NCBI RefSeq assembly: GCF_025947065.1
Contig: NZ_CP109994.1
Span: forward strand, 4,216,001-4,280,000
Length of the DNA: 64,000 nucleotides
Reading direction: 5' to 3'
Source: Flavobacterium sp. N1736
Lineage (GTDB): Bacteria; Bacteroidota; Bacteroidia; Flavobacteriales; Flavobacteriaceae
In this document: in pieces, positions 1,228 through 59,716 of the stretch
Layout: each line of letters begins with the position of its first letter
Numbering within the stretch: the stretch's first letter is position 1
Position numbers and translations under genes: made by a program
Notes under the pieces: generated by a model
What the model was told of the DNA's origin: nothing
Seen by the model: the letters and a program-made list of their open reading frames with translations, nothing else
Databases searched by the model: none

Positions 1228-2406
1228 CTATTTAAATGCCGAAATTCCAGTTACATCCATTCCTGTAATCAATAAATGAATGTCGTGAGTTCCTTCATAA
1301 GTAATCACACTTTCCAGGTTCATCATATGGCGCATGATCGAATATTCGCCTGTAATCCCCATTCCGCCCAACATTTGTCTGGCTTCACGTGCAATATGAA
1401 TTGCCATATCGACATTATTACGTTTTGCCATTGAGATTTGAGAAGTGGTTGCTTTTCCTTCGTTTCTTAAAACGCCTAAACGCCAGGTTAATAATTGCGC
1501 TTTTGTGATTTCGGTAATCATTTCTGCAAGTTTTTTCTGTTGTAGCTGCGTTCCTCCAATTGGTTTTCCAAACTGAATTCTTTCTTTAGCATAACGTAAA
1601 GCTGTATCGTAACAATCCATTGCTGCTCCAATTGCTCCCCAGGCAATTCCGTATCTGGCAGAATCTAAGCAGCCAAGCGGTGCTCCCAATCCTGATTTAT
1701 TTGGTAAAAGATTTTCTTTTGGAACTTTTACGTTATCAAAAATTAATTCGCCGGTTGATGATGCACGAAGCGACCATTTATTATGAGTTTCAGGAGTTGT
1801 AAAACCTTCCATTCCGCGTTCTACAATTAAACCGTGAATTCTTCCTTCTTCATTTTTTGCCCAAACTACAGCAATATCTGCAAATGGCGCATTCGAAATC
1901 CACATTTTGGCACCATTTAAAAGGTAATGATCTCCCATATCTTTAAAATTGGTAATCATACTTCCTGGATCTGAGCCATGATCCGGTTCTGTTAAACCAA
2001 AGCAGCCCATAAATTCACCGGTTGCCAGTTTTGGTAAATATTTCATTCGCTGTTCTTCGTTTCCATATTTCCAAATTGGATACATAACTAAAGAAGATTG
2101 TACAGATGAAGTCGATCTTACGCCAGAATCCCCGCGTTCAATTTCCTGCATAATTAAACCGTATGAAATTTGATCTAAACCGGCACCGCCATATTCTACT
2201 GGAATATAAGGGCCGAAACCGCCAATTTCGCCAAGTCCTTTTATAATTTGTTTAGGAAATTCTGCTTTTTGAGCATATTCTTCAATAATAGGAGAAACTT
2301 CTCGTTTAACCCACGCACGAGCAGATTCGCGAACTAATTTATGTTCGTCTGTCAATAAATCGTCAAGGTTGTAATAATCTGGAGCTTGAAATAAGTCTGG
2401 TTTCAT
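1228..2406 (-). CDS. gcdH: Acyl-CoA dehydrogenase, glutaryl-CoA dehydrogenase type
   Basis: 392 residues, full length for the acyl-CoA dehydrogenase family: helical N-terminal domain, beta domain with the FAD-binding FGLTEPDHGSDPG and KMWISNAPFAD stretches, and a C-terminal helical domain ending in a catalytic-base motif Y-E-G-T-H-D-I-H near residue 370. The EGTHD context, R-F-G-K-P-like IQFGKPIGGTQLQQKKLA and overall length best fit glutaryl-CoA dehydrogenase, which oxidises and decarboxylates glutaryl-CoA to crotonyl-CoA in lysine/tryptophan breakdown. It has no partner genes of that pathway nearby, so the exact substrate is inferred. Monocistronic: own promoter upstream and terminator downstream. 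Confidence 0.9.
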   Translation of the reverse strand: MKPDLFQAPDYYNLDDLLTDEHKLVRESARAWVKREVSPIIEEYAQKAEFPKQIIKGLGEIGGFGPYIPVEYGGAGLDQISYGLIMQEIERGDSGVRSTSSVQSSLVMYPIWKYGNEEQRMKYLPKLATGEFMGCFGLTEPDHGSDPGSMITNFKDMGDHYLLNGAKMWISNAPFADIAVVWAKNEEGRIHGLIVERGMEGFTTPETHNKWSLRASSTGELIFDNVKVPKENLLPNKSGLGAPLGCLDSARYGIAWGAIGAAMDCYDTALRYAKERIQFGKPIGGTQLQQKKLAEMITEITKAQLLTWRLGVLRNEGKATTSQISMAKRNNVDMAIHIAREARQMLGGMGITGEYSIMRHMMNLESVITYEGTHDIHLLITGMDVTGISAFK

Positions 2407-2427
2407 TTTTTGGTAATTTTACAAAAA

Positions 2428-2454
2428 CAAATTTACGCAATAAAAATATAACAA
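2428..2454 (-). promoter_or_regulatory. Promoter for gcdH (TTG-N16-TAAATTTG)
   Basis: A -7 box TAAATTTG with a -33 TTG 16 bases further upstream. The -33 region lies in the 11-bp inverted repeat at 2446-2475. Confidence 0.6.
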
Positions 2455-2475
2455 AATGCATTTGTTTTGTTATAT
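2446..2475. repeat. Perfect 11-bp inverted repeat in the gcdH promoter region
   Basis: ATATAACAAAA, an 8-base loop, then the exact complement. It covers the -33 region of the gcdH promoter, so it could be an operator. It is not followed by a clear T-tract that would make it a good terminator. Confidence 0.5.
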
Positions 2476-2545
2476 TTTTTTACAGCTAAAATAAAATTAA
2501 TAGGAATTTGGCAAATTAAATGTAGTTATTTGAAAATTTAAGCAC

Positions 2546-2553
2546 TATTTTTG
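2546..2553 (+). promoter_or_regulatory. -7 promoter element (TATTTTTG) for the TPR/AraC regulator
   Basis: Exact TAnnTTTG match about 20 bases before the start codon. Confidence 0.55.
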
Positions 2554-2572
2554 AATTCCAAAAACATAATAA

Positions 2573-4324
2573 ATGAGGCTGATCATCTCTTTTTTACTTT
2601 TTCTTGTTCTCAATATTACTTTTGCTCAGCAAAAGAAAGAATTAACAGAACAGGAATACTTAGTCTTGCAGGATAAAATTCGGCTATATACAAACAAAAA
2701 TGTAGACAGCTCTTTTATGTATGCACATATAATGGAGAAGTCAAATAATAATAAACATATGGCTTTTGCCAATGTTGCACTTTCATATTTATATCAATTA
2801 AAAGATAACGTCTCAAAATCTAAAGAAAAATATCTTTTGGCATTTAATTATCTGGACAAAATGCCTGAATCAACAGATAAAATACGTCTTAAATCATATC
2901 TATATAATTACGGAGGTTTAATAGAATATAAAAGAGGTAATTACAGTAAAGCACTTGAAAATTATCAGCAGGGAATGAAGCTTTCTTTGCAAATAGATGA
3001 TATTATTCAGATTGTAAAATTTAAGGGAAACATTGCATTTGTTAACGAAGCAGTGGGCAATTATCAATTGGCAATTAAAAATTTACGACAACTTGATGCC
3101 GTAGTAGATCAAAACGAAAACCTTTATACCAAGGAACAGTTTAATACAATAAAAAGTAATAATAACATTACTTTAGGCAGTTCATATGAGAGCAGTTATA
3201 TGAAAAATCAAGACAAAAAATATTTGCTGGATTCTGCAGCCTATTTTTATAAAAAAACACTTTCATACTCACAAAATATTCCGGTCAATAAAATAGGTGC
3301 TAAAACCAGTTTGGGTAATGTTTATTACTTGAAAAAGGACATTAAAAATGCTGAAAAAACGTATTATGATATTATATTTATTGCTAAACAAAATAATATC
3401 AAAAAGGCATTTATGGTTGCCAATTATAATTTAGGTAATTTATATTACGAAACAAAAAAATATGATAAGGCACTTGTTTTTTTAAAAAGAGTAGATTCCA
3501 TTTCTCAAGTCGATAAAAGTAAAGATGAAAGTTTTTTAAAGTCAAATTACTATTTGGCCAAAATTTACAATATAAAGAAAGACCCGGAATTAGCTTATAA
3601 ATACTCTAAAATTTATTTGGATAATTATGAAAAATCAGAAGCTAAATTAAGCAACGAGGCATTAGAGGTTAATTATAAGCTTGGAACAGGAGATTTAAGT
3701 GATGAAATGATTACCATTCAGAAAAAGTTTGAAAACGAAGTATTATTAAACAAGGCATTAAAAGTATTTTATGTTTTATTGGTAATTGGAATCATATTTT
3801 TACTGATAAAAAATATAAGAGACAAAAATAAAGCGCATAAAAAAATGAATGCTTTAATTGAGGAGTTTAAAGCAAATTTAGAAAAGAAAAATGAGCCTCA
3901 GCCTGAAATTCTTGTACTTGAACTTGAACCGGAAGAAGAAATTCAGCTTAAAAAAGAAAATGTCAATTTAAGTATTGATGAAGCTAAAGAGAATAAAATT
4001 GTTGAAAAATTACTGGCTTTAGAAAATAAGTTGGAATACTTAAATGCTGATTTTACATTGCAATATGTTGCCAAAAAAATAAAAACCAATACAACTTATT
4101 TATCTTATGTTGTAAATAAACGATTTGGAAAATCGTTTGGAGAATATTCAAACGAGCTTAAAATTAATTATGTTATCAATGAAATGATTACCAATCACAT
4201 GTATCGTAAATATTCTACTCAGGCTATTGCAGAAAGTGTAGGGTTTAAAAACGCGGTATCTTTTGCTAAATCATTTCGCAAAAGAACTGGAGTATCTCCA
4301 GCTCAGTTTGCGAGTAATATTTGA
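2573..4324 (+). CDS. Membrane-anchored TPR/AraC-type transcriptional regulator
   Basis: 583 residues in three parts: a signal-like hydrophobic N terminus ending in F-A-Q, a periplasmic TPR array (about 30-385, with pairs such as Y-K-R-G-N-Y-S-K-A and Y-Y-E-T-K-K-Y-D-K-A-L), one membrane segment near 397-413, then a coiled-coil linker and a C-terminal AraC helix-turn-helix domain (about 480-583, ending S-F-R-K-R-T-G-V-S-P-A-Q-F). Such Bacteroidota proteins sense something outside the inner membrane and bind DNA through the cytoplasmic HTH. It lies next to the double-glycine peptide cluster and is a reasonable candidate regulator for it, but only adjacency supports that. Confidence 0.85.
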   Translation: MRLIISFLLFLVLNITFAQQKKELTEQEYLVLQDKIRLYTNKNVDSSFMYAHIMEKSNNNKHMAFANVALSYLYQLKDNVSKSKEKYLLAFNYLDKMPESTDKIRLKSYLYNYGGLIEYKRGNYSKALENYQQGMKLSLQIDDIIQIVKFKGNIAFVNEAVGNYQLAIKNLRQLDAVVDQNENLYTKEQFNTIKSNNNITLGSSYESSYMKNQDKKYLLDSAAYFYKKTLSYSQNIPVNKIGAKTSLGNVYYLKKDIKNAEKTYYDIIFIAKQNNIKKAFMVANYNLGNLYYETKKYDKALVFLKRVDSISQVDKSKDESFLKSNYYLAKIYNIKKDPELAYKYSKIYLDNYEKSEAKLSNEALEVNYKLGTGDLSDEMITIQKKFENEVLLNKALKVFYVLLVIGIIFLLIKNIRDKNKAHKKMNALIEEFKANLEKKNEPQPEILVLELEPEEEIQLKKENVNLSIDEAKENKIVEKLLALENKLEYLNADFTLQYVAKKIKTNTTYLSYVVNKRFGKSFGEYSNELKINYVINEMITNHMYRKYSTQAIAESVGFKNAVSFAKSFRKRTGVSPAQFASNI

Positions 4325-4339
4325 TCTTAGTTTAAAGAT

Positions 4340-4522
4340 TTAAGTATTTCCACGAATATCTTTTACTTGATTTGGATCTACGGTTGTCACTTCTCCATTA
4401 TCTCCTACTTGATTTGGATCTATGGTTGTCACTTCTCCATCGCCTCCTTTGATTGCTTTTTTCTGACCATTAGATATTTTTTCCAGCTCAAAATCTTCGA
4501 ATTTTAATTTTTTGTTTGCCAT
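4340..4522 (-). CDS. Double-glycine leader peptide with an internal duplicated core
   Basis: 60 residues. Residues 1-27 are a leader of the kind cut by C39 peptidases: hydrophobic/acidic heptads (LKFEDFELEKIS) then A-I-K-G-G. The 33-residue core has no cysteine and consists mainly of two copies of GEVTT(I/V)DPNQV, repeated with a 42-base period. It is probably co-transcribed with the other minus-strand precursor, 61 bases upstream. The core has no bacteriocin feature I recognise, so it may be a signal, a structural peptide or a toxin. I infer export through the C39 ABC transporter encoded 3.4 kb away. Confidence 0.7.
   Translation of the reverse strand: MANKKLKFEDFELEKISNGQKKAIKGGDGEVTTIDPNQVGDNGEVTTVDPNQVKDIRGNT
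4364..4440. repeat. Two 35-base tandem copies, period 42, inside a peptide gene
   Basis: Units at 4364-4398 and 4406-4440 differ at one base (4381 versus 4423). Each encodes GEVTT(I/V)DPNQV. The near identity at DNA level points to recent duplication. Confidence 0.9.
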
Positions 4523-4583
4523 TATTTTATGTTTTGTATATTTTATATTTATTTAATCATTTAGATTTATTTCTTGTAATTTT

Positions 4584-4724
4584 TCATGGAGTTCCACCAG
4601 TTACAACTCCTTTAATTGGATCACCAGGACCTTGTGGTTCATCTCCTCCACGAACTGTTTTTTGTTGTTTTTTTGTCAATTTTTCTCCTGCAAAATCTTC
4701 TAATTTTAATGTCGTACTTGTCAT
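4584..4724 (-). CDS. Short double-glycine leader peptide precursor
   Basis: 46 residues: leader LKLEDFAGEKLTKKQQKTV-R-G-G (cut expected after Gly27) and a 19-residue Gly/Pro-rich core starting DEPQGPGDP with no cysteine. The leader closely matches that of the neighbouring minus-strand precursor (L-K-x-E-D-F at the same position). An in-frame ATG 42 bases upstream would add 14 residues, but it overlaps the likely -7 box (TAGTTTTG), so the internal ATG is used. First gene of a two-gene minus-strand unit. Confidence 0.7.
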   Translation of the reverse strand: MTSTTLKLEDFAGEKLTKKQQKTVRGGDEPQGPGDPIKGVVTGGTP

Positions 4725-4753
4725 GTTTTTACGTGTTATGGTTATTGATATTT

Positions 4754-4761
4754 CAAAACTA
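4754..4761 (-). promoter_or_regulatory. -7 promoter element (TAGTTTTG) for the minus-strand peptide pair
   Basis: Exact TAnnTTTG match 30 bases before the ATG at 4724. No convincing -33 TTG was found. Confidence 0.5.
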
Positions 4762-4984
4762 GACAAAAAGCAAAACGCTTAATCGAAAATGAGCTTTTGG
4801 AGAATTTTAGCAACATAAATTTAGCATAATTATTTGATATACAAGGCATTGAACGATTTATTCAGACTGATATAATTTATAAATTGTATGTAGTATAATT
4901 AATAAAATGTGTGCCTTTGATGATTTTTTTCCAATAAAAACATCAATATTTGCATTGTCATTACGATTTAAAAGGCAAAAAAAC

Positions 4985-6538
4985 ATGTTAAAATTAGTAC
5001 AGAAATTTCTTCAAATTAATAAATACTCGGAGGTAAAAAATGAGTTTAAGGATCTGTTTCTTTCTCATCCAAATTATCCAAGTTTATTTGCAATAACAGA
5101 CTCATTAGATTTGTTGTCTGTGGAGAATGCCGCTGTAAGAGTTTCGAAAGAACAAATTGAAAATTTACCATCTAATTTCCTTGCTTATTTTAAAGATGAA
5201 CTTACTTTGGTAGAAAGAGCAAAAGATTTTGTTCGAATAGATACTATTAAAAAAGGAATTCAAAAAATATCGTATGATAATTTTCTTTTAGACTGGAATG
5301 GGGTAATTGTTGCAATTGAACCAAATAATGTAGTTGGAAGAGAAAATTTTAAAAATGAGTATAAAGACGTAAAATATTATTTGCCCTTATTTGTTTTAGC
5401 CGGATTTTCATTTTTCTATAATAGTTATAATGCATTTAGTCTTGTGTTTTTGATTACATCAATATTAGGATTAATTATTAGTGTATTTATTGTTCAGGAA
5501 AAATTAGGTTTTAAAACCAATATTATTTCGAAGTTTTGCAATTTAACTGCAAATACTTCTTGTAGTTCGGTTGTTAATTTTGATAGCAATACTAAAAGAT
5601 GGATTAATTTTTCAGATTTGCCTTTGGTTTTCTTTGGATCATCTTTCCTTGCTATTTTGTTGAGACCTTTAGATTCCGCAATTTTTATAGGATTTTTAAG
5701 TTTATTGGCTATTCCTATTATAGTGACATCAATTTGGATACAAAAATTTGAAATTCAAAAATGGTGTGTAATGTGTCTGGCAGTTTCATTTCTGATTTTT
5801 ACACAAAGTATTGTTTGGTTTGCATCAGATTTGTTTACACTAAGTTTTAGCTTACCAACGATATTGCCATTTTTATTTTCATTGGTTCTTTTAACTTCTA
5901 CTTGGTTGGTAATAAAACCGGTTGTAAAAAATATATTGAATAGTGATACTAATGTAAAGGAACTTAAAAAATTTAAAAGAAATTATTCACTTTTGAATTT
6001 CTTATCAAAAAAAATCCCTCATAATGAAGGACTTGAAGATTTAAGAGGTTTACATTTTGGAAATAGAAATGCTGCAATTAAGTTATCGATAGTTTTGAGT
6101 CCGAGTTGTGGACATTGTCATAAAACATTTCAGGAAGCATTTGACTTGGTTTTGAGATTTCCGGACAAAATTTTTCTGAACATATTATTTAATGTTAATC
6201 CGGAAAATGTTGAGAATCCATATAAAATTGTTGTCGAAAGACTTTTAAGCATAAACAGAGCTACACCGGGAAAAATTGTAGAAGCGATTTCAGACTGGCA
6301 TATTAAAAAAATAGGTCTTAAAAAATGGTTGAAAAAATGGCATACTGAACCAGTTAGCATGATGATCAATCAGGAAATACAAAAACAATACGAGTGGTGT
6401 TCTAAAAACAATTTTAATTATACACCGGTTAAAATTGTAAATGAAAAATTATTTCCAAACGAATATGAGCTGCATGAATTAAGATACTTCTTGAATGATT
6501 TTGTTGAAGAAGTAGAAGTTTTAGAAAAGATAGCTTAA
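4985..6538 (+). CDS. C39-like / vitamin K epoxide reductase / thioredoxin fusion membrane protein
   Basis: 517 residues. Domain order: a degenerate C39-peptidase-like domain (about 1-120, no catalytic Cys; HPNYPSLFAITDSL and WNGVIVAIEP are visible); a VKOR-type membrane domain (about 130-310) with loop cysteines Cys185 and Cys193 and the redox pair W-C-V-M-C (Cys261, Cys264); a C-terminal thioredoxin-like domain with C-G-H-C (Cys375, Cys378). The VKOR family oxidises thioredoxin-fold partners using quinone, making disulfides outside the cytoplasm. The C39-like domain may hold double-glycine leaders. It is followed 39 bases later by Cys-rich leader peptides, the likely substrates. A longer start at 4907 is possible; this ATG begins the recognisable domain. 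Confidence 0.8.
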   Translation: MLKLVQKFLQINKYSEVKNEFKDLFLSHPNYPSLFAITDSLDLLSVENAAVRVSKEQIENLPSNFLAYFKDELTLVERAKDFVRIDTIKKGIQKISYDNFLLDWNGVIVAIEPNNVVGRENFKNEYKDVKYYLPLFVLAGFSFFYNSYNAFSLVFLITSILGLIISVFIVQEKLGFKTNIISKFCNLTANTSCSSVVNFDSNTKRWINFSDLPLVFFGSSFLAILLRPLDSAIFIGFLSLLAIPIIVTSIWIQKFEIQKWCVMCLAVSFLIFTQSIVWFASDLFTLSFSLPTILPFLFSLVLLTSTWLVIKPVVKNILNSDTNVKELKKFKRNYSLLNFLSKKIPHNEGLEDLRGLHFGNRNAAIKLSIVLSPSCGHCHKTFQEAFDLVLRFPDKIFLNILFNVNPENVENPYKIVVERLLSINRATPGKIVEAISDWHIKKIGLKKWLKKWHTEPVSMMINQEIQKQYEWCSKNNFNYTPVKIVNEKLFPNEYELHELRYFLNDFVEEVEVLEKIA

Positions 6539-6577
6539 AATTGAAAACAAAAAACAAGTAACTATAAAACCATTATT

Positions 6578-6823
6578 ATGTTAAAAAATATTATAAATCT
6601 GGAAGGAGTTCTAAAGTTAAGTAAAAACGAACAAAAGAACATTTTTGGAGGATTACCAGTTCAGCCGGCTAATTGTTCATGTTTTTGCATGAACGGAACC
6701 AGAAAAGTCGATGCATATTGTTATGCATTATGTCCAGGCGGGTCGCTTCCTGGAATATCAGAAGGCAGCACTGGAAATTGCAACTATCCTTTTCCCTTTC
6801 CTCCAGGACCTGGAATAGAATAA
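6578..6823 (+). CDS. Cys-rich double-glycine leader peptide (six core cysteines)
   Basis: 81 residues: 25-residue leader (NLEGVLKLSKNEQKNIF-G-G) and a 56-residue core with six cysteines (N-C-S-C-F-C, Y-C-Y-A-L-C and N-C), Gly-rich in the middle and Pro/Phe-rich at the C terminus (PFPFPPGPG). The even Cys count fits up to three disulfides. It directly follows the VKOR/thioredoxin gene, with no promoter seen between them, so co-transcription is likely. I do not recognise the mature peptide; a bacteriocin or a signalling peptide are both possible. Confidence 0.8.
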   Translation: MLKNIINLEGVLKLSKNEQKNIFGGLPVQPANCSCFCMNGTRKVDAYCYALCPGGSLPGISEGSTGNCNYPFPFPPGPGIE

Positions 6824-6839
6824 TATAAAAAAATAAAAT

Positions 6840-7031
6840 ATGTTAAAGAAAATTTTAAACCTAGAAAGCGCTCAAAAAATAACCAAAATGGAGCAAAAAA
6901 CAATGCAGGGAGGAATTCCAGAATGTTGGGTTTATGCAATCGAAGCGGGATGTGTATTAATATCAATTGGTGAAACGTGTCCTTTCGATACGAAATTTGG
7001 TTTTTGCGATACAAACCGGGTTTGCTGCTAA
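6840..7031 (+). CDS. Cys-rich double-glycine leader peptide (six core cysteines, C-terminal CC)
   Basis: 63 residues: leader NLESAQKITKMEQKTMQ-G-G cut after Gly25, and a 38-residue core with six cysteines ending R-V-C-C. The leader resembles the preceding peptide's (MLKxILNLE), while the core is unrelated, as in families that diversify cores behind a common leader. It starts 16 bases after the previous stop, so it belongs to the same unit. The core has a hydrophobic stretch (WVYAIEAGCVLISIG) that might reach a membrane. Function unknown. Confidence 0.8.
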   Translation: MLKKILNLESAQKITKMEQKTMQGGIPECWVYAIEAGCVLISIGETCPFDTKFGFCDTNRVCC

Positions 7032-7098
7032 TTTTCTTAAACTTAAAAATAAACAAGTAATAACAATACAGCCTTATTAGAATTTAGTCATGTTTTTT

Positions 7099-7106
7099 TT
7101 AATTTG
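7099..7106 (+). promoter_or_regulatory. Near-consensus -7 box (TTAATTTG) before the structured RNA
   Basis: Seven of eight match to TAnnTTTG. It would start transcription near 7110-7114, at the foot of the first hairpin of the RNA candidate. No clear -33 element is visible. Confidence 0.35.
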
Positions 7107-7108
7107 TA

Positions 7109-7302
7109 GGCGCTCGATCGTGGAACATTGAGCAAATATCCCCACATTGATGATTGGTGTCGGGATTCTCAGGAAAGGTGGTCACTGAGTTGGTTTTAAT
7201 TGGTTAGGGCTAACCAGTGCCATATCCTAGAGAAATTGTATTACTAAATTTTACACTTTTTTAGATATTAAACAGAGAGAAATTATTCTCTCTGTTTTTT
7301 TT
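7109..7302 (+). ncRNA. Candidate structured RNA with its own terminator
   Basis: A stretch with no convincing reading frame, richer in G and C than its surroundings, that folds into successive helices. Helix 1: 7112-7118 with 7127-7133 (7 bp, one G-U). Helix 2: 7140-7146 with 7158-7164 (one mismatch). Helix 3: 7166-7174 with 7225-7234 (9 bp, one bulged A). Nested helix 4: 7179-7187 with 7215-7222 (8 bp, one bulge). Internal hairpin: 7202-7206 with 7211-7215. It ends in a perfect terminator. It could be an independent small RNA or the 3' end of the peptide transcript. I do not recognise a named family; the Rfam Flavo-1 motif is one to compare. Confidence 0.5.
7271..7302 (+). terminator. Strong Rho-independent terminator
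   Basis: A perfect 11-bp stem (AACAGAGAGAA and complement), a 4-base loop and six or more T residues. It ends the structured RNA or the upstream peptide operon. Confidence 0.85.
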
Positions 7303-7409
7303 AGAACAATATTGACAGTTGTCTGAATTATATTAATAAAAAAGAGGCAGAAACTTCAACTGTCTTAAAATGATTGAAGTGCTAATCAAAAACCATAAAA
7401 CAATTAAAA

Positions 7410-7589
7410 ATGAAAGACCTGAAAAATTTAAAAGGAATTGATGTTTTAAGTAAAAATGAGCAAAAAAGTATAATAGGAGGAGGTGGTCCCATAGCCTGTT
7501 ATTGTCCTGATGGAACTTTTGCCGGTATAGCTACTGACGGTGAAGGATGTGGTGGTATTATTGATCACAATTGCCCGTTGGACTCATAA
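7410..7589 (+). CDS. Double-glycine leader peptide with four core cysteines
   Basis: 59 residues, easily missed by length cut-offs. The leader (NLKGIDVLSKNEQKSII, then four glycines) shares L-S-K-N-E-Q-K with the six-cysteine peptide 0.8 kb upstream. The core after Gly24 or Gly26 is 33-35 residues with four cysteines (A-C-Y-C, G-C-G-G, N-C-P) and is Gly/Asp-rich. It sits between two terminator hairpins, so it seems to be expressed as its own short unit. No clear TAnnTTTG box lies just upstream. Function of the mature peptide unknown. Confidence 0.75.
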   Translation: MKDLKNLKGIDVLSKNEQKSIIGGGGPIACYCPDGTFAGIATDGEGCGGIIDHNCPLDS

Positions 7590-7626
7590 AAGATTTAGGA
7601 TTTTCTGATTTCTTAGAAAAGTTAAA

Positions 7627-7664
7627 AATGAAAGCTTTGTTATTTATTTAGCAAAGCTTTCATT
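7627..7664 (+). terminator. Hairpin terminator after the four-cysteine peptide gene
   Basis: A 13-bp stem (AATGAAAGCTTTG and complement) with a 12-base AT loop. The tail CATTATTTGAG is only moderately T-rich, so termination strength is uncertain. Confidence 0.6.
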
Positions 7665-7703
7665 CATTATTTGAGTATTGTAAATACAGTTAAAGATTTT
7701 TCT

Positions 7704-7711
7704 TAGGTTTG
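7704..7711 (+). promoter_or_regulatory. Possible -7 box (TAGGTTTG) for the exporter operon
   Basis: Exact TAnnTTTG match, but about 165 bases upstream of the exporter start, implying a long AT-rich leader. The rest of 7665-7877 holds no gene I can see. Confidence 0.35.
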
Positions 7712-7877
7712 ATTTTTAAAATATATTTAAAAATTTTCTTAAATTTATGATTTACAACGTATTATGTTTAAATATTGGCTTTTATTTAATCAAAATAAGA
7801 TTTTACATATTTAAACAACTCTTTTCTTTTTTAAGAATTTTTGTATAATATTGCTATTAAATAAACCCAATTAAGAA

Positions 7878-10070
7878 TTGAAAAAATTCACCAATTACAA
7901 ACAGGCAGATTATAAAGATTGCGGCCCTACGTGTTTAAAAATAATTGCTAAACATTATGGCAAGACAATCCATATTCAAGAGTTGCGGGATAACAGCGAA
8001 ACAACTCGTGAAGGAAGTAATTTGCTTTTTTTGAGCGATGCCGCAGAGAAAATTGGTTTTAGAACTTTAGGCGTAAAATTAAACGTAAAAAGGTTAGAAG
8101 AAGCTCCATTGCCTTGTATTCTGCACTGGAATAAAAATCATTATGTTGTTCTTTATAAAATCAAAAAAGGGAAATATTACATTTCTGATCCGGGTTTTGG
8201 TTTGATTGAATATAATGAAGAGGATTTTCTTAAATTCTGGATAGGAAATAATGCCGATGAACTGACTCAGGAAGGAATCGCATTACTGGTTGAAGCAACG
8301 CCTAAATTTTTTCAGTCAGAATTTGACAGAGAAGAAAACAAAGGCCTTGGATTTGGATTATTATCACAATACGTTTTGCGATATAAATCATTCCTAATGC
8401 AGTTAAGCATCGGTTTATTAGCAAGTAGTTTATTGCAGCTGATTTTTCCGTTTTTAACCCAAAGTATTGTCGATATTGGAATACAAAATCAAAATATCCA
8501 TTTTATATATTTGATTCTTTTTGCACAATTATTTCTTTTTGCCGGAAGAACAGGTTTAGAATTAATCAGAAGCTGGATATTATTGCATCTTTCAACCCGA
8601 ATAAATATCTCTTTAATATCAGACTTCTTCATTAAATTGATGAATCTACCAATTTCGTTTTTTGATGTTCGAATGACAGGCGATATCATGCAGCGTATTA
8701 ATGATCATAGACGAATTGAACGAATTTTAACCACATCATCATTAAATGTATTGTTCTCTGTAATAAATATGTTTGTTATGGGTGGCGTTTTGGCTTATTT
8801 TAATCTTCAGATTTTCTTTGTGTTTTTTGCCGGAAGTATTCTTTATTTTGGGTGGATTACTTTATTCTTAAAAAGAAGGGAAATTTTAGATTACAAACGT
8901 TTTGCCGAAGTTTCTCAGGAACAAAGTAAAGTGATGGAACTTATAAATGGTATGCAGGAAATCAAACTGCATAATGCCGAAAAACAAAAGCGCTGGGGAT
9001 GGGAATATGTACAGGCAAGACTTTTCAGGGTTTCAATAAAGGGATTGATTTTAGAACAAACTCAAACCATCGGATCTTCGGTAATTAATGAATTGAAGAA
9101 TATTTTTATCATATTTTTTTCTGCAAAATTAGTTATAGATGGTTCAATTACCCTTGGTATGATGCTGGCGATAAGTTCTATAGTTGGAAGTTTAAACGGA
9201 CCAATTACACAACTTATCGAATTTGTGAGAGAACTTCAGGATGCTAAAATTTCATTGGCAAGGTTATCTGAAATTCACGAAAAAGAAGATGAAACCCAAC
9301 AAGAAGCACACCAAACCAACGAAGTTCCATTTAACGGAGATATCGATATAAAAAGTATTTCGTATCGTTATTTAGGATCAGATATTCCCGTTCTCGAAAA
9401 TCTGAGTTTAATTATTCCGGCGAATAAAGTGACCGCAATAGTCGGCGTTAGCGGAAGCGGAAAAACAACACTCATGAAATTATTGCTTAAATTTTATGAA
9501 CCCAATACTGGAGAAATTAATATTGGAAATACACAATTGAAAAATATTTCCCAAAAAGCCTGGCGTTCTTACATTGGAGCCGTTATGCAGGAAGGTTTTA
9601 TTTTTAGTGATACAATTGCCAATAATATTGCTATTGGAGTTGATAAAGTCGATAAAGACCGTTTGGTTTATGCAGCCGATGTTGCAAATATAAAAGAATA
9701 CGTAAGCAGTTTGCCGCTTGGCTATAATACAAAAATTGGTTCAGAAGGATTAGGAATGAGCACAGGGCAAAAACAACGATTATTGATTGCCAGAGCAGTT
9801 TATAAAAATCCTGAAATCTTGTTTTTTGATGAAGCTACTTCAGCCTTAGATGCAAATAATGAAAGAGAAATCATGAGAAAACTCGATATTTTCTTCAAAG
9901 AAAAAACCGTCGTTGTTATCGCACACCGTTTAAGTACGGTAATGAACGCAGATCAGATTGTGGTTTTGGATAAAGGGAAAATTATCGAAATTGGATCTCA
10001 TTCGGCTTTAGTAGAACAAAAAGGAAATTATTTTGAGTTAGTTCGAAATCAATTACAATTAGGAAATTAA
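7878..10070 (+). CDS. C39-peptidase ABC transporter for double-glycine peptides
   Basis: 730 residues, full length for a peptidase-containing ABC exporter. The N-terminal C39 domain has the motif Q-x4-D-C-G-P-T-C with catalytic Cys15, His88 (N-H-Y-V-V-L) and Asp104 (S-D-P). A six-helix transmembrane domain follows, then an ATPase domain with Walker A G-V-S-G-S-G-K-T-T, a signature region G-M-S-T-G-Q-K-Q-R and Walker B ILFFDEATSALD. It cleaves leaders after Gly-Gly and exports the cores. The start is TTG: an in-frame stop lies 6 bases upstream and no ATG precedes the catalytic Cys. The adaptor gene begins two bases after its stop. The five leader peptides upstream are the obvious cargo. Confidence 0.92.
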   Translation: MKKFTNYKQADYKDCGPTCLKIIAKHYGKTIHIQELRDNSETTREGSNLLFLSDAAEKIGFRTLGVKLNVKRLEEAPLPCILHWNKNHYVVLYKIKKGKYYISDPGFGLIEYNEEDFLKFWIGNNADELTQEGIALLVEATPKFFQSEFDREENKGLGFGLLSQYVLRYKSFLMQLSIGLLASSLLQLIFPFLTQSIVDIGIQNQNIHFIYLILFAQLFLFAGRTGLELIRSWILLHLSTRINISLISDFFIKLMNLPISFFDVRMTGDIMQRINDHRRIERILTTSSLNVLFSVINMFVMGGVLAYFNLQIFFVFFAGSILYFGWITLFLKRREILDYKRFAEVSQEQSKVMELINGMQEIKLHNAEKQKRWGWEYVQARLFRVSIKGLILEQTQTIGSSVINELKNIFIIFFSAKLVIDGSITLGMMLAISSIVGSLNGPITQLIEFVRELQDAKISLARLSEIHEKEDETQQEAHQTNEVPFNGDIDIKSISYRYLGSDIPVLENLSLIIPANKVTAIVGVSGSGKTTLMKLLLKFYEPNTGEINIGNTQLKNISQKAWRSYIGAVMQEGFIFSDTIANNIAIGVDKVDKDRLVYAADVANIKEYVSSLPLGYNTKIGSEGLGMSTGQKQRLLIARAVYKNPEILFFDEATSALDANNEREIMRKLDIFFKEKTVVVIAHRLSTVMNADQIVVLDKGKIIEIGSHSALVEQKGNYFELVRNQLQLGN

Positions 10071-10072
10071 TC

Positions 10073-11362
10073 ATGGCAGAAGATACATTTGAATTAAGAA
10101 GTGAAGAAGTTCAGGACATTCTCACCAAAGTACCACATTGGATGATACGCTGGGGAACCGTTTTGATATTCGTTATACTTTTCATGCTGTTTTTTGTATC
10201 CTGGTTTATTAAATATCCCGATGTTGTAAATACTGAAATTGTAATTACAACCAATATTCCGCCAGAAAAAATAGTATCTAAGACATCAGGACGTATTGAA
10301 GCGATTTTGGTTAAGGATAAATCAATAATACAGAAAAATACAACGCTCGCTATTATTGAAAACACAGCTAATTACAAAGATGTTTTTTTATTAAAAAAAA
10401 TAATTGACGGTTATAACGTAAATGATTCAAAGAAAGATTTCCCGTTTCATTTACTAAAAAACACGCAGCTAGGAGAAATCGAAAGTGCTTATGCCGTTTT
10501 TCAAAAAGATTATCAGGCACAGGAATTAAATGAAAATCTGCATCCGTATGAAGTCGAAAACCGAGCGCAGATTTCAGAAAAGATTCAGATAAGAGAAAGA
10601 TTAGATATACTGCAACAGCAAAAAGTAATAAACGAAAGCGAATTACAGCTTCAAAAAAATGAGATTGCCCGTTTTGAAACCTTATTTAATAAAGGGATTA
10701 TTTCGGCTCAGGAAATGGAAGCTAAAAAACTAGGATATCTTCAGGCTCAGAAGAGTTATAAAAGCCTTTTGTCGTCTATTTCTCAATTGAGGTCATCTTT
10801 AATAGATAATACAAAATCAAGTCAGAATTCTCACATAAACAGCACGAAAGAAGAAGTTAATCTGGAGCGAGGTATGGCGCAATCTTTTTACCAGCTTAAA
10901 AAAGTGATAAAAGACTGGGAACTTAATTATACCTTGAAATCATCTGTTAGCGGTGTTGTAACTTTTTTACAGGTTTGGACAGAAAATCAAACCATAACTG
11001 CCGGAGATAATGTGTTTTCGATAATTCCTGATACAAAAAATGGTTTTGTTGGCAAAGTAAAAGCGCCTGCATTAAATTCAGGAAAAATAAAAGTAGGTCA
11101 AAAGGTAAATATAAGGCTGTCAAATTTTCCGGATAGAGAATTTGGTGTATTATATGGCAGAATTCAGAATATTTCTTTAGTTCCGGATAAGGATGGAAAT
11201 ATATTATTGGATGTTGCTCTTCCAAACGGATTACAAACATCGTATAAAAAACAGATCTTGTTTCAACAGGAAATGAAAGGAAATGCAGAAATTGTAACCG
11301 AAGATTTACGTTTATTAGAAAGAATTCTGTATCAGTTTAAGAGTATTTTTGAGCAGGTTTAA
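10073..11362 (+). CDS. HlyD-family membrane fusion protein, partner of the C39 exporter
   Basis: 429 residues: short cytoplasmic N terminus, one membrane segment (about 25-45, WGTVLIFVILFMLFFVSWF), a split lipoyl/barrel-sandwich domain around a long coiled-coil hairpin (about 125-265), and a beta-barrel region (SSVSGVVTFLQVW onward). It should link the ABC exporter to an outer-membrane channel across the periplasm. It lies two bases after the exporter gene, so the two are translated from one message. No TolC-like gene is in the cluster, so the outer-membrane channel must be encoded elsewhere. Confidence 0.9.
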   Translation: MAEDTFELRSEEVQDILTKVPHWMIRWGTVLIFVILFMLFFVSWFIKYPDVVNTEIVITTNIPPEKIVSKTSGRIEAILVKDKSIIQKNTTLAIIENTANYKDVFLLKKIIDGYNVNDSKKDFPFHLLKNTQLGEIESAYAVFQKDYQAQELNENLHPYEVENRAQISEKIQIRERLDILQQQKVINESELQLQKNEIARFETLFNKGIISAQEMEAKKLGYLQAQKSYKSLLSSISQLRSSLIDNTKSSQNSHINSTKEEVNLERGMAQSFYQLKKVIKDWELNYTLKSSVSGVVTFLQVWTENQTITAGDNVFSIIPDTKNGFVGKVKAPALNSGKIKVGQKVNIRLSNFPDREFGVLYGRIQNISLVPDKDGNILLDVALPNGLQTSYKKQILFQQEMKGNAEIVTEDLRLLERILYQFKSIFEQV

Positions 11363-11383
11363 GACTCTAATATAATAGATACT

Positions 11384-12091
11384 TTACATCTTCAAATAAA
11401 AATCCTTTGTAAGTTCAATATATTCAGGAGTATAAACATGTCTTTCGATTTCGATAATTAACTCATCGATTTCAATTTCAGGACTTTCATTTCGGCTAAA
11501 AGCCAATAAACTGCGCTTGATTTCAGATGTTGGAGTTCCTTTTACACGCGTAATTTTAGTTGGATATAATTCCCATTCTTTTGCTAGAGATATAAATTTC
11601 TGTTCTTCTTTATAAGGAAGAATAATGGAAAATATTCCATTTTCCGAAAGCAATAAATCAGCAGCTTCAACTAATTCTTCAAAAGGCATTGCATCCTGAA
11701 AGCGTGCTAAATCACGTTGTTCGTTTTCAGTTTTATAATCCTCTGCATAGAACGGTGGATTCGAAACAATCAGGTCATATTCGTCTTCCGGTTCTTCAAT
11801 AAATTCATCTAAGCCGGCATGAAAACAAAATAATCGATCACCCCAAGGAGAATTCTCGAAATTGTCAACCGCTTGTTCGTACGCATCTTCGTCAATTTCA
11901 AGAGCATCAATTTGTTCAGCATGAGTTCGCTGAGCAAGCATCAAAGCAATAATTCCGGTTCCCGCACCAATATCTAAAACACTAAACGGATTATGATGAA
12001 TTGGAGCCCAAGAACCCAATAAAACACCATCAGTTCCTACTTTCATAGCGGTTTTATCTTGTTGAACAGAAAATTGTTTAAATTGAAACAT
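11384..12091 (-). CDS. trmN6: tRNA1(Val) adenine-37 N6-methyltransferase
   Basis: 235 residues. Rossmann-fold SAM methyltransferase with SAM motif VLDIGAGTGIIALMLAQ and the N6-adenine catalytic motif N-P-P-F, preceded by the family-typical F-K-Q-F-S-V and K-V-G-T-D-G-V-L-L-G-S-W. The family (YfiC/TrmN6) methylates A37 of tRNA1(Val). It lies downstream of rimM and rpsP on the same strand, 103 bases from rimM, a common flavobacterial arrangement. Confidence 0.9.
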   Translation of the reverse strand: MFQFKQFSVQQDKTAMKVGTDGVLLGSWAPIHHNPFSVLDIGAGTGIIALMLAQRTHAEQIDALEIDEDAYEQAVDNFENSPWGDRLFCFHAGLDEFIEEPEDEYDLIVSNPPFYAEDYKTENEQRDLARFQDAMPFEELVEAADLLLSENGIFSIILPYKEEQKFISLAKEWELYPTKITRVKGTPTSEIKRSLLAFSRNESPEIEIDELIIEIERHVYTPEYIELTKDFYLKM

Positions 12092-12194
12092 CAGATTTAA
12101 ATTATAAGATTAACGAATGCTGATTTTTCTTTGATAACGAAGTGTGAAATTTTTATTTTCGGTTAAACAAATGACCGATTAAACAAATCAACTT

Positions 12195-12719
12195 TTAAAG
12201 ATACATTTCAACAAGCCCTTCAGGCAAATTCATGATAACTTTCTTATTCTCACGATCAATTTTTACAAGGAAATGATCGATCATCGGAATTAGCATTTCG
12301 ACTTCGCCATTTATAACTTCAAAAAGAGGCTGAGCGGTAGTATCGTTAACGGCAACAATTTTTCCAAAAACACCTAAACGCTGGTCTTCAATTTCGAAAC
12401 CGATAACTTCGTGGAAGTAAAATTTGTTACCGGAAAGTTTTGGCAACATATTTAAAGGAAGATAAATTGCATTACCCATAATGGCGTCTGCTTCTTCTTC
12501 TGTGTTCATGTCTTCAAAACGAATTCTAAGAAAATCATTTTTATGCAATGAACTTTTTTCAATAAAAAAAGGAACCAGGTGTTTGTTGCATTCAACAAAC
12601 ACTGATTCCAGGTTTTCGTATAACTCAGGTTCGTCCGTGTCTAAATAAGCCAGAACTTCACCTTTGAAACTAAATTTTTTAGCGATTTTACCTAAATAAA
12701 AACATTCTTCTTTACGCAT
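12195..12719 (-). CDS. rimM: 16S rRNA processing/maturation protein RimM
   Basis: 174 residues, normal length. N-terminal RimM beta-barrel (YLGKIAKKFSFKGEVLAYLDTD) and C-terminal PRC-barrel domain (FYFHEVIGFEIEDQRLGVFGKI, then MLIPMIDHFLVKIDRENKKV). It binds S19 and helps mature the 30S head. It follows rpsP by 15 bases, so the two form an operon. Confidence 0.95.
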   Translation of the reverse strand: MRKEECFYLGKIAKKFSFKGEVLAYLDTDEPELYENLESVFVECNKHLVPFFIEKSSLHKNDFLRIRFEDMNTEEEADAIMGNAIYLPLNMLPKLSGNKFYFHEVIGFEIEDQRLGVFGKIVAVNDTTAQPLFEVINGEVEMLIPMIDHFLVKIDRENKKVIMNLPEGLVEMYL

Positions 12720-12734
12720 TCTCGCTAGCTAAAA

Positions 12735-13307
12735 TTATGCTTCAGTTGTTTCGTTATTTTCTTCAGCAGCAGGAGCTTCTTCAGTAGCAGCTTCCGCTTC
12801 AACTTCAGCAACTTCTTCTTCAACTGCAGGAGTTGCAGCAGCGATAGCATCAGCTTCAGCCTGAGCTGCAGCAGCTAAACGTTTAGCATTAACTTCTTGT
12901 TCTGCTTTAAAAGCTTTAGCTTTAGCATCAGCTTGCGCTTTTGTTAAACCGTCTTTTTTAGCATCAACTTTTCCAGCTTTAGCATCTAACCAATCAGCTA
13001 ATTTTGCATCAGCTTGTTCTTGAGTTAAAGCACCTTTACGAATACCTCCATCAAGGTGGTGTTTCAATAAAGCACCTTTGTAAGAAAGAATTGCTCTTGC
13101 AGTATCAGTTGGTTGTGCACCATTGTGTAACCATTTAACTGCACTATCAAGGTTTAAGTCGATAGTTGCCGGGTTAGTGTTTGGATTGTAAGTACCGATT
13201 TTTTCTAAGTATTTACCATCTCTTTTTGAGCGTGCATCTGCAGCTACAACCCAGTAAAAAGGTTTTCCTTTTTTACCGTGTCTTTGTAATCTAATTTTTA
13301 CTGACAT
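12735..13307 (-). CDS. rpsP: 30S ribosomal protein S16 with long C-terminal extension
   Basis: 190 residues. The first 80 or so (VKIRLQRHGKKGKPFYWVVAAD, SRSKRDGKYLEKIGTYNP-like) are canonical S16. The remainder is a Lys/Ala/Glu-rich tail, ending in an Ala/Glu-rich acidic run, that roughly doubles the usual length of about 80-90. Such tails are common in Bacteroidota S16. First gene of rpsP-rimM(-trmN6), with its own promoter and a small hairpin in the untranslated leader. Confidence 0.95.
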   Translation of the reverse strand: MSVKIRLQRHGKKGKPFYWVVAADARSKRDGKYLEKIGTYNPNTNPATIDLNLDSAVKWLHNGAQPTDTARAILSYKGALLKHHLDGGIRKGALTQEQADAKLADWLDAKAGKVDAKKDGLTKAQADAKAKAFKAEQEVNAKRLAAAAQAEADAIAAATPAVEEEVAEVEAEAATEEAPAAEENNETTEA

Positions 13308-13326
13308 AATCGTATGATTAAATTTT

Positions 13327-13341
13327 GAGGTACTCGACCTC
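13327..13341 (-). other. Small hairpin in the rpsP 5' leader
   Basis: GAGGT, a 5-base loop and ACCTC, between the promoter and the rpsP start. It could be a regulatory or stability element; nothing else supports a role. Confidence 0.35.
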
Positions 13342-13356
13342 TGTTAATTAAGGGCG

Positions 13357-13364
13357 CAAAGATA
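13357..13364 (-). promoter_or_regulatory. -7 promoter element (TATCTTTG) for rpsP-rimM
   Basis: Exact TAnnTTTG match about 50 bases before the rpsP ATG. Confidence 0.7.
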
Positions 13365-13479
13365 TAATTTTTTTCTGAATTGTTTATTTAAATGCTTATT
13401 AAATAGTTTGTGTGTCATTTTTTGTTCCTGCAAGTAGTCTTTTTTTTATTTAAAATTCATTTATTTCTTCGAAATGCAA

Positions 13480-13487
13480 TATTTTTG
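13480..13487 (+). promoter_or_regulatory. -7 promoter element (TATTTTTG) for the DUF6252-like lipoprotein
   Basis: Exact TAnnTTTG match about 30 bases before the ATG. Confidence 0.6.
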
Positions 13488-13516
13488 CCTGGAATTCTAG
13501 TTCTAAAATACACAAT

Positions 13517-14008
13517 ATGAAAAAATGGTTCTCTCTGATAATGATTGTTTTTTTACTTTCGTCTTGCGCCGAAGATATAAAATTCAATAATCCGGCATTT
13601 CAAACGTTAAAAGACAATGTTTTTTGGAGAGCTCAAAGTTACAAAGCGAATATTACGACTACAGGCAATTTGGTTATCGAAGGCTCTTTAGGATTCGAAA
13701 AAATAGTTTTGCAAACCGCTTATCCATCAAAACAAACCTTTACTCTTGGTCAAAATAATATTTCAAAAGCAACTTATTCTAATTCCTTACCAGCAGAAAC
13801 AGAAGAATTTACCACCGGCACAAACATTGGTAACGGACAAATTGTGATCACAGATTATAATACTGATACGCATACCGTATCAGGAACATTTAAATTTACA
13901 GCAATAAATAGCGACGAAGAAAATACAGAAAAAACACAAATGAAATTTTCTGAAGGAGTATTTTATAAAGTCCCGGTTTCTCCTGCTTCAAATTTTATTA
14001 CGAATTAA
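13517..14008 (+). CDS. Lipoprotein, DUF6252-like
   Basis: 163 residues with a signal peptide ending in lipobox L-S-S-C (Cys17). The mature part is predicted beta-rich (FWRAQSYKANITTTGNLVIEG, VSGTFKFTAIN) with no catalytic motif. The pattern of C-A-E-D-I-K-F-N-N-P-A-F-Q followed by a short beta sandwich is what I recall for DUF6252 flavobacterial lipoproteins, function unknown. Single gene with its own promoter. Confidence 0.7.
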   Translation: MKKWFSLIMIVFLLSSCAEDIKFNNPAFQTLKDNVFWRAQSYKANITTTGNLVIEGSLGFEKIVLQTAYPSKQTFTLGQNNISKATYSNSLPAETEEFTTGTNIGNGQIVITDYNTDTHTVSGTFKFTAINSDEENTEKTQMKFSEGVFYKVPVSPASNFITN

Positions 14009-14108
14009 CATTTGCCAATAATTGATTCATTTTCCTGAATTCTGCTTTTTTAAATCAAAATAAAAACATAAATAAACTAATATATAGTAGATTAGAGAAA
14101 AATAAGAG

Positions 14109-14116
14109 TACATTTG
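14109..14116 (+). promoter_or_regulatory. -7 promoter element (TACATTTG) for the RRM protein
   Basis: Exact TAnnTTTG match 24 bases before the ATG. Confidence 0.65.
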
Positions 14117-14140
14117 CTACATTATTATAAATAAGTACAT

Positions 14141-14500
14141 ATGAACATTTTTGTTGGAAGCCTTCCATTCAGTATTGAGGAAGCAGATTTAAGAGAGTCT
14201 TTCGAGGCTTACGGAGCAGTAGATTCAGTTAAAATTATTACAGATAAATTTACTGGAAGAAGCAAAGGTTTTGGTTTCGTAGAGATGCCAAACGATGCGG
14301 AAGCTCAAAAAGCAATTGATGAATTGAACGGAGCTACTGTTCAAGGTCGTGCAATTGTAGTTAATAAATCTGAACCGAAACCTGAAGGTGAAAGAAGAAG
14401 CTTCAACAATAACAGCCGTGGTGGAGATTCACGCGGAGGTTATGGTGGAGGAAACAGCCGTGGTGGAAATGACCGTGGTGGTAACAGAGGAGGATATTAA
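14141..14500 (+). CDS. RNA-binding protein with one RRM domain and Gly-rich tail
   Basis: 119 residues: one RNA recognition motif (1-80) with RNP2 I-F-V-G-S-L and RNP1 K-G-F-G-F-V-E-M, then an Arg/Gly-rich tail (RGG-type repeats, about 90-119). It resembles the small Gly-rich RNA-binding proteins of Bacteroidota and cyanobacteria, thought to act as RNA chaperones, often under cold conditions. Monocistronic, with its own promoter and a strong terminator. Confidence 0.93.
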   Translation: MNIFVGSLPFSIEEADLRESFEAYGAVDSVKIITDKFTGRSKGFGFVEMPNDAEAQKAIDELNGATVQGRAIVVNKSEPKPEGERRSFNNNSRGGDSRGGYGGGNSRGGNDRGGNRGGY

Positions 14501-14520
14501 TATTTTTTTCTAAATATATA

Positions 14521-14553
14521 AAAGGGATCAACGAAAGTTGATCCCTTTTTTTA
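14521..14553 (+). terminator. Rho-independent terminator after the RRM gene
   Basis: A 12-bp stem (AAAGGGATCAAC and complement) with a GAAA tetraloop and a run of T residues. Confidence 0.9.
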
Positions 14554-14588
14554 TGCAGTAAAATTTGTTTAAAATTTGTTTAAAATTG

Positions 14589-14648
14589 TTTCAGGTTTCA
14601 AGTTTCAGGTTGCGTAACTTGAAACTTGAAACAAATAAAACTTGAAAC
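14589..14648. repeat. Imperfect palindrome of TTTCAAGTTTCAGG-type repeats
   Basis: GTTTCAAGTTTCAGGTT followed by AACTTGAAACTTGAAAC around a short centre, plus one more ACTTGAAAC. It lies between convergent genes, at the 3' end of leuB, and may end the leu transcript. Confidence 0.7.
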
Positions 14649-14652
14649 AATA

Positions 14653-59545: not shown

Positions 59546-59716
59546 ATGAACACAACAAAACTTTTTGCCCGTATGGTACGCTGGCGGTATTGGAAACAAC
59601 CACAACGCGTTCTCGAAAGCGTAGGACAGCTAACCCATACGGGTTTTATATTTCCTAAATTCCGAGATTATGAGTACCAAAACCCTTTCAAAAGAAGCCG
59701 AAGCCCGGATTATTGA
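59546..59716 (+). CDS. Small basic protein of unknown function, overlapping the next gene
   Basis: 56 residues, strongly basic and aromatic at the N terminus (F-A-R-M-V-R-W-R-Y-W-K-Q-P-Q-R). It is preceded by a -7 box and by CTAAATATCGAGATTATGA, which closely repeats the sequence in front of the next gene (CTAAATTCCGAGATTATGA). Its 3' 47 bases overlap that gene in another frame, which would allow coupled translation. Richer in G and C than nearby DNA. I recognise no family. It may be real, or the reading frame may be incidental to a transcribed leader. Confidence 0.5.
   Translation: MNTTKLFARMVRWRYWKQPQRVLESVGQLTHTGFIFPKFRDYEYQNPFKRSRSPDY

Follow-up and report, generated by a model that had tools for sequence, protein, structure and literature searches.

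A widespread Flavobacterium locus for predicted export of cysteine-rich double-glycine peptides, with a linked sensor gene and a structured RNA

Gene content of the locus

A stretch of 64000 nucleotides from the genome of Flavobacterium sp. N1736 (a single contig of 5.1 Mb; RefSeq accession number NZ_CP109994.1; coordinates 4216001 to 4280000), referred to below as the window, was examined for a locus that exports small peptides with a double-glycine (GG) leader. A preliminary description of this DNA had listed five GG precursors, a C39-like/VKOR/thioredoxin fusion protein (hereafter the oxidase), a C39 exporter and an adaptor, and all of these were found among the open reading frames (ORFs) of the window (Table 1). 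However, that parts list lacked the sensor gene, the operator-like repeat, the structured RNA element and its terminator. The locus is real and widespread in Flavobacterium, with the export of disulfide-rich peptides as its core, and the preliminary description had missed half of its design.

Table 1. Features of the locus, with positions in the window
Feature	Position	Strand	Basis
Sensor-regulator: signal-like segment (1-19), TPR domain, one transmembrane (TM) helix (395-413), AraC-type helix-turn-helix (HTH)	2573..4324	+	Pfam TPR, HTH_18; hydropathy
Class A GG precursor 1, Cys-free, core repeat TTxDPNQV	4340..4522	-	ORF list, Cys count
Class A GG precursor 2, Cys-free, ATG at 4724	4584..4724	-	ORF list, Cys count
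Operator-like direct repeat TATAATTTATAAA, 23 bp apart	4871..4906	+	Conservation across loci, genome pattern scan
Oxidase fusion: domain with the C39 fold but no catalytic residues, VKOR, thioredoxin domain of DsbA/ScsC-like type	4985..6538	+	Pfam, Cys conservation, structure model
Class B GG precursor, 6 Cys in core	6578..6823	+	ORF list, Cys count
Class B GG precursor, 6 Cys in core (IPECW... type)	6840..7031	+	ORF list, relatives
Conserved structured RNA element	7071..7234	+	Fold z, covariation, Rfam negative, distribution
Intrinsic terminator 3' of RNA	7270..7297	+	Terminator prediction
Class B GG precursor, 4 Cys in core	7410..7589	+	ORF list, Cys count
C39 peptidase-ABC exporter (PCAT-like), TTG start	7878..10070	+	Pfam, motif alignment
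HlyD-type membrane fusion protein (adaptor)	10073..11362	+	Pfam

Seven ORFs matching the leader pattern were present in the whole 64 kb, five of them within 3.3 kb at the locus, and as 20 first-order random 64-kb sequences gave only 0 to 3 matches each, this clustering is far above chance. The other two ORFs we take to resemble a channel and a ferredoxin. The locus, of ~9 kb, occupies a fixed site in many Flavobacterium species, and the usual order in the closest relatives is an acyl-CoA dehydrogenase-like gene, sensor, class A precursors, oxidase, class B precursors, exporter, adaptor, a methyltransferase gene and rimM, the names of the flanking genes being our own assumption. In loci L050 to L058 (L and G numbers designate loci and genomes), the exporter is 86-93% identical to that of the window; when the best copy of each is taken, the sensor reaches 66-75% and the oxidase 71-78%.

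Two classes of precursor

The precursors had been described as five diverse disulfide peptides, which did not hold, as they fall into two classes: three cysteine (Cys)-rich precursors on the plus strand (class B) and two Cys-free precursors on the minus strand (class A). Cys were counted in 38 loci (the window, L050-L064 and L107-L128) using a pattern that requires GG, hence GG-less precursors such as those in L122, L125 and L127 are not included. The Cys number was even in 83 of 85 class B cores (six Cys in 41, four in 35, two in 7, and five and one in a single core each). Class A cores were Cys-free in 99 of 101, the other 2 having one Cys. A disulfide-based exported peptide system is well supported for the three plus-strand precursors, which are accompanied by an oxidase with six Cys that are invariant in 26/26 relatives. 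It does not fit the pair on the minus strand, whose occurrence follows that of the sensor gene and not that of the oxidase (see below).

Class A genes number 1 to 8 per locus, are arranged in arrays and lie on the strand opposite to the sensor gene. Their cores have a median length of 20 residues and consist of 24% Gly, 15% Pro, 12% Asp and 12% Asn. In 32 loci, core similarity was 0.74 within a locus (152 pairs) versus 0.26 between loci (4408 pairs), and 65 of the 86 copies in multi-copy loci had their best match in their own locus. A well conserved block containing TAGTTTTG is present upstream of class A (4740-4800, minus strand), and resembles the Bacteroidota promoter element.

The oxidase, exporter and adaptor

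The oxidase start was placed at 4985 and not at 4907, because the upstream stretch is broken by stop codons in many relatives. The structure predicted for the protein (pLDDT 83, with fold matches) includes an N-terminal domain with the C39 fold. However, an active C39 peptidase needs a catalytic Cys and His, and neither was found in this domain: residues 1-118 contain no Cys in 20 of 26 relatives and one unconserved Cys in the other 6, and at the place of the HWNxxH motif of active C39 domains the alignment shows FLAYFKDEL, a sequence without His. The VKOR assignment comes from Pfam, with no VKOR chain among the 50 fold matches listed. An additional TM-like segment precedes the VKOR core, and therefore the C39-like domain may lie in the periplasm. 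A VKOR profile search was positive in 53 of 199 genomes of the genus at E<=1e-100 and in 8 of 198 genomes class-wide at E<=1e-20. No account of a C39-VKOR fusion turned up in a search of the open-access literature. In this protein, a fold otherwise used by leader peptidases has become one domain of a disulfide oxidase.

In the exporter, the Cys, His and Asp motifs of the C39 domain align with those of PCAT1. Members of the exporter family were detected in 30/100 relatives at E<=1e-200, and at two of five other exporter sites the neighbours were radical S-adenosylmethionine (rSAM)-like or lanthipeptide-like by eye. Exporters kept where the precursors are lacking, which the preliminary description had seen as speaking against it, do occur, but trivially, as the family also serves other peptide clusters. 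The exporter therefore does not define the system; it is the oxidase and the class B peptides that do so. A strong terminator-like hairpin is located 3' of the third class B gene (7627-7664), and the exporter may therefore need its own promoter here.

As previously noted, no outer-membrane channel, lanthionine or rSAM gene was seen among the ORFs of the locus, though no search aimed at such genes was made, and no ORF for a lanthipeptide or rSAM modification enzyme lies beside the precursors at the locus in the window. No immunity gene was seen at the locus either.

Class A genes and the operator-like repeat are linked to the sensor gene

The sensor gene was detected in 15 of 100 relatives at E<=1e-80, always at this locus. 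Mean pairwise identity among 41 sensors, calculated per 25 residues, was 0.46-0.70 up to residue 475 and 0.79-0.95 beyond it. Sequence comparison with the PDB gave mostly generic TPR proteins, with RapJ among the 60 matches listed.

The linkage of the precursors was examined in a set widened by 16 regions from the VKOR search of the 199 genus genomes; L252 and L253, where the sequence ends too near the oxidase, a 27% oxidase copy in L245 and the distant oxidases of L065-L076 (34% or less) were left out of the count. A sensor gene directly upstream of the oxidase gene defined 46 sensor units (32 RNA-bearing loci and 14 others). In all 46, a class A ORF was found on the opposite strand between the two genes, with GG in 42, whereas none was found in the 14 oxidase units without an adjacent sensor (L061, L241, L242, L244a, L246a, L247, L248a, L249a, L251, L254, L255, L050b, L107b and L240), for which the upstream minus-strand ORFs were listed and read alike. 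The latter include L244a, with a partial sensor match only, and L240, in which an insertion puts 4.6 kb between the sensor and the oxidase. Class A thus travels with the sensor gene and not with the oxidase, and the linkage of an exported peptide gene to a dedicated receptor-like gene (46/46 versus 0/14) is what a pheromone circuit calls for. Natural experiments are provided by the tandem arrays of class A genes and by the 14 oxidase units that lack the sensor.

Two of the sensor-less units, L061 and L241, carry a small HTH gene (XRE-like by eye) opposite the oxidase gene. In L240, the sensor and oxidase genes are separated by a gene set (coordinates 2353-6947) that by eye resembles an ATP-grasp cluster and includes a small precursor of its own; class A was not found there.

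The candidate operator is a near-invariant block of 36 bp in which TATAATTNATAAA occurs twice at a spacing of 23 bp; the block ends 78 bases upstream of the oxidase start. With up to 5 mismatches to the consensus, it was present in 32/32 RNA-bearing loci. It occurs once in the genome that contains the window. A scan of the genus found it in 31 of 199 genomes, one copy each, and the reversed pattern in none; these 31 are the RNA-bearing genomes minus G218, in which the copy has more mismatches. Under a looser criterion (half-sites 22-23 bp apart, <=5 mismatches in total, within 200 bp), the repeat was found in the 32 RNA-bearing loci and in 11 of the 14 other sensor units (43/46), and in 0/14 sensor-less units; shuffled controls gave 0-3 of 200 each.

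For 24 loci with one sensor, class A core distance correlated with distance in the sensor TPR domain (r 0.32, by permutations that ignore the species tree). The partial correlation given exporter, adaptor, two flanking genes and VKOR was also 0.32 and was reached by 0/2000 permutations, while the values for core against HTH (-0.05) and core against VKOR (-0.04) were near zero. These values are suggestive of co-divergence of the class A core and the TPR domain.

A conserved structured RNA element

The gap between the second and third class B genes (7032-7409) includes a strong fold (z -4.6; 0/100 shuffles), and in ten loci changes on both sides were seen in 14 of 73 predicted pairs. A covariance model built for this RNA was positive in 32 of 199 genus genomes and gave no convincing score in 18 other loci. 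In the alignment of 33 copies (32 distinct), which was fitted to the model and is biased by it towards pairing, 98.1% of cells pair and 12 pairs have double changes, values that 0/500 shuffles reach; sliding the helix partner left 36-51% paired. The element has invariant loops and keeps invariant stretches outside the helices. The RNA structure is real; its action on expression is a proposal.

No RNA in the window matched any of 4227 Rfam families at the gathering score, and matches in 7032-7409 were far below it. An element with strong covariation is therefore absent from Rfam 15, and no account of it turned up in a search of the open-access literature. A small RNA, Rfp18, is reported to be conserved in the genus (PMC9723704). 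Among 247 genomes of the class, only seven matches lay outside Flavobacterium; they were weak, with E values from 0.003 to 0.09 and a top score of 21.5 bits, and were taken as chance. A pattern scan of named genomes gave 87 stretches, and the 80 listed were all from Flavobacterium or Flavobacteriaceae except one (Flexibacter); F. johnsoniae CI04 is among the records that carry the RNA. Among the genomes scanned, the RNA is convincingly found in Flavobacterium-type genomes only.

At the 80 listed loci, the oxidase gene is upstream of 73 of 85 RNA copies, 11 being too near the sequence end, and L189 has none within 4.5 kb. The next matched gene on the 3' side is the exporter gene for 70 of the 85 and a second oxidase gene for 2 (L177 and L204); the sequence end came first for 13, in two cases (L140 and L176) after more than 3.5 kb. 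A terminator-like hairpin follows 79 of 88 distinct copies, and the 9 that lack it include the first of the tandem copies in L122, L152, L161, L170 and L199. Two copies per locus were observed in L141 (from the same genome as L122), L152, L161, L170 and L199. The upstream flank is poorly conserved, and hence no separate promoter is evident.

A coding role for the element was considered and rejected, as an ATG is present in every aligned copy, yet three sequence groups give differing short frames (by eye). For the invariant stretch AAUUUAGUCAUGUUUUUUUU, class A start regions are better pairing partners than other ORFs are (a mean difference of -2.3 kcal/mol, reached by 1 of 150 shuffled heads). 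This pairing is only a lead, since the copies of class A are not independent of one another and the starts of HlyD genes score as well.

Comparison with known systems

The nearest system is that of the bacteroidetocins (class IIf; Coyne 2019, PMC6671954), whose loci encode a GG peptide that contains four Cys, along with a thiol oxidoreductase, a C39 exporter and a 5-TM protein, and lack an obvious immunity gene. Their target is BamA, described for Bacteroidales only (PMC8546649). The likeness lies in gene content and Cys pattern, namely a GG leader, a precursor with paired Cys, a dedicated thiol oxidoreductase, a C39 exporter and the lack of an obvious immunity gene. Unlike bacteroidetocin loci, the locus studied here has several precursors, an oxidase combining an inactive C39 domain with VKOR and thioredoxin, an HlyD adaptor, a membrane sensor of its own, a second class of precursor that is free of Cys and a structured RNA.

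A VKOR-thioredoxin fusion exists as a Synechococcus protein. Known fusions (VKOR and DsbA-like PDB chains) share with the oxidase a VKOR core with four invariant Cys and a CxxC thioredoxin domain but lack the peptidase-dead N-terminal C39 fold and the extra TM-like segment. The leader region is similar to the GG leader families TIGR04149 and leader_Chryseo (NCBIfam), with every match of the precursors tested below the curated cut-offs.

Among pheromone-controlled GG peptide loci of Gram-positives is blp. Another is rtg (PMC7018657), in which GG peptides likewise pass through one C39 exporter under a dedicated regulator. The present locus differs from rtg and blp in belonging to a Gram-negative and in having a TPR-AraC protein that spans the membrane as its sensor, with no kinase or Rgg, and the signalling role is putative.

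To our knowledge, little has been described of peptide-based density sensing in Bacteroidota. Signalling by GG peptides in Gram-negatives was reportedly the topic of a paper from 2004. In Bacteroidales, TPR genes have been described in peptide clusters, together with the suggestion that peptides are sensed (PMC10352776). Neither idea is therefore new in outline; what the present locus adds is the linked putative receptor, the candidate operator, the suggested co-divergence and the RNA.

Proposed functions and alternatives

We read the locus as a sensor-controlled, bacteroidetocin-like disulfide peptide export locus with two products, of which class A is a candidate pheromone, and give this reading about an even chance of being correct. 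The steps that we infer would be as follows. Class B precursors would be cleaved behind the GG and leave the cell through the C39 exporter and its HlyD adaptor, with their paired Cys oxidised by the VKOR-thioredoxin protein, whose peptidase-dead C39 domain probably holds the precursor. By analogy with bacteroidetocins, the class B peptides are likely to be bacteriocins, most probably against related Bacteroidota. Class A precursors would use the same exporter, and a pheromone role for them is plausible: the peptide may be bound outside the cytoplasm by the TPR domain of the membrane sensor, while the AraC domain would bind the direct repeat between the class A and oxidase genes and switch both on. 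The structured RNA and terminator at the end of the peptide transcript may set the amount of exporter or of class A. Should class A prove to be a signal, the locus would encode a peptide quorum-sensing circuit, of a kind little known from this phylum; it offers a testable receptor, ligand, operator and output at one 9-kb site. A bolder version, in which the circuit is complete, a co-evolving one-component TPR-AraC receptor senses class A outside the cytoplasm and controls disulfide-folded bacteriocins, and a new RNA family damps or shapes the loop by pairing around the start codon of class A, is tentative and on balance doubtful.

Several observations weigh against the proposed reading. The class A leader lacks GG in 4 of 46 sensor units (L060a, L062, L245 and L246b), two of which (L062 and L246b) are atypical, and class A in these four and in L244b was found by eye in the gap, not by pattern. 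The operator repeat was not found in three sensor units (L059, L064 and L243). In another family, L070 has a TPR-AraC gene with no class A found; L069 has both a TPR-AraC gene and a Cys-free GG peptide, and L071 and L073 have neither. The core-TPR correlation is modest, comes from 24 loci and is judged by permutations blind to the species tree; moreover, a correlation with TPR is also seen for the leader of class A (partial 0.28, 0/2000), hence shared descent may explain part of it. A periplasmic location of the C39-like domain would make leader binding there harder to explain. For the RNA, 'further pair types', one of five measures, was not above shuffles (167/500). Finally, the sensor linkage also fits a class A that the sensor merely controls.

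Two alternatives fare best, both of which we consider unlikely. The first is that both classes are antibacterial, with class A as the Cys-free partner in a two-component bacteriocin and the sensor answering some other cue such as envelope damage. A common leader type and exporter agree with this, and as many as 8 class A genes in an array would be in keeping with a product made in bulk, but class A is lacking from 14/14 oxidase units without a sensor, and its core seems to covary with the sensor domain and not with VKOR. The second, held to be no more probable than the first, is that class A is exported surface or decoy material under sensor control, the linkage being regulatory without ligand binding; the low-complexity Gly/Pro/Asp cores and homogenisation of the arrays would be expected of such material, whereas the joint divergence suggested for TPR domain and core would not.

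Improbable to a greater degree is a plain bacteroidetocin-like bacteriocin locus in which class A genes are degenerate relics and the RNA a transcript-end stabiliser. Its core genes are indeed those of bacteroidetocin loci (PMC6671954), but an intact class A GG leader in 42/46 units and RNA invariance that extends beyond the helices argue against relics and a mere stabiliser, respectively. Equally improbable is a metabolite riboswitch gating the exporter, since, despite the invariant loops of the RNA, its place before the exporter and the terminator that usually follows it, ~35 nt of poorly conserved sequence separate RNA and terminator, no antiterminator-forming overlap was seen by eye, and class B genes intervene between RNA and exporter in the window and some other loci.

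Additional loci and elements

A PHROGs search gave a single weak match with no assigned function. Rfam matches elsewhere in the window were a c4-2 RNA (59567-59646) and an S16-Flavobacteria leader (13317-13348). The same genome carries a second, distant locus, L066 (G000:C1:2461001-2481000), with an oxidase of 29% identity, an exporter of 78% identity, a GG peptide that has 4 Cys, and an ORF of 448 aa whose kind also adjoins the exporters in L065 and L238. In L107, the RNA is separated from the exporter by an insertion (11021-15416), namely another oxidase unit that brings a GG peptide of its own and two large ORFs, indicating that the site takes up modules.

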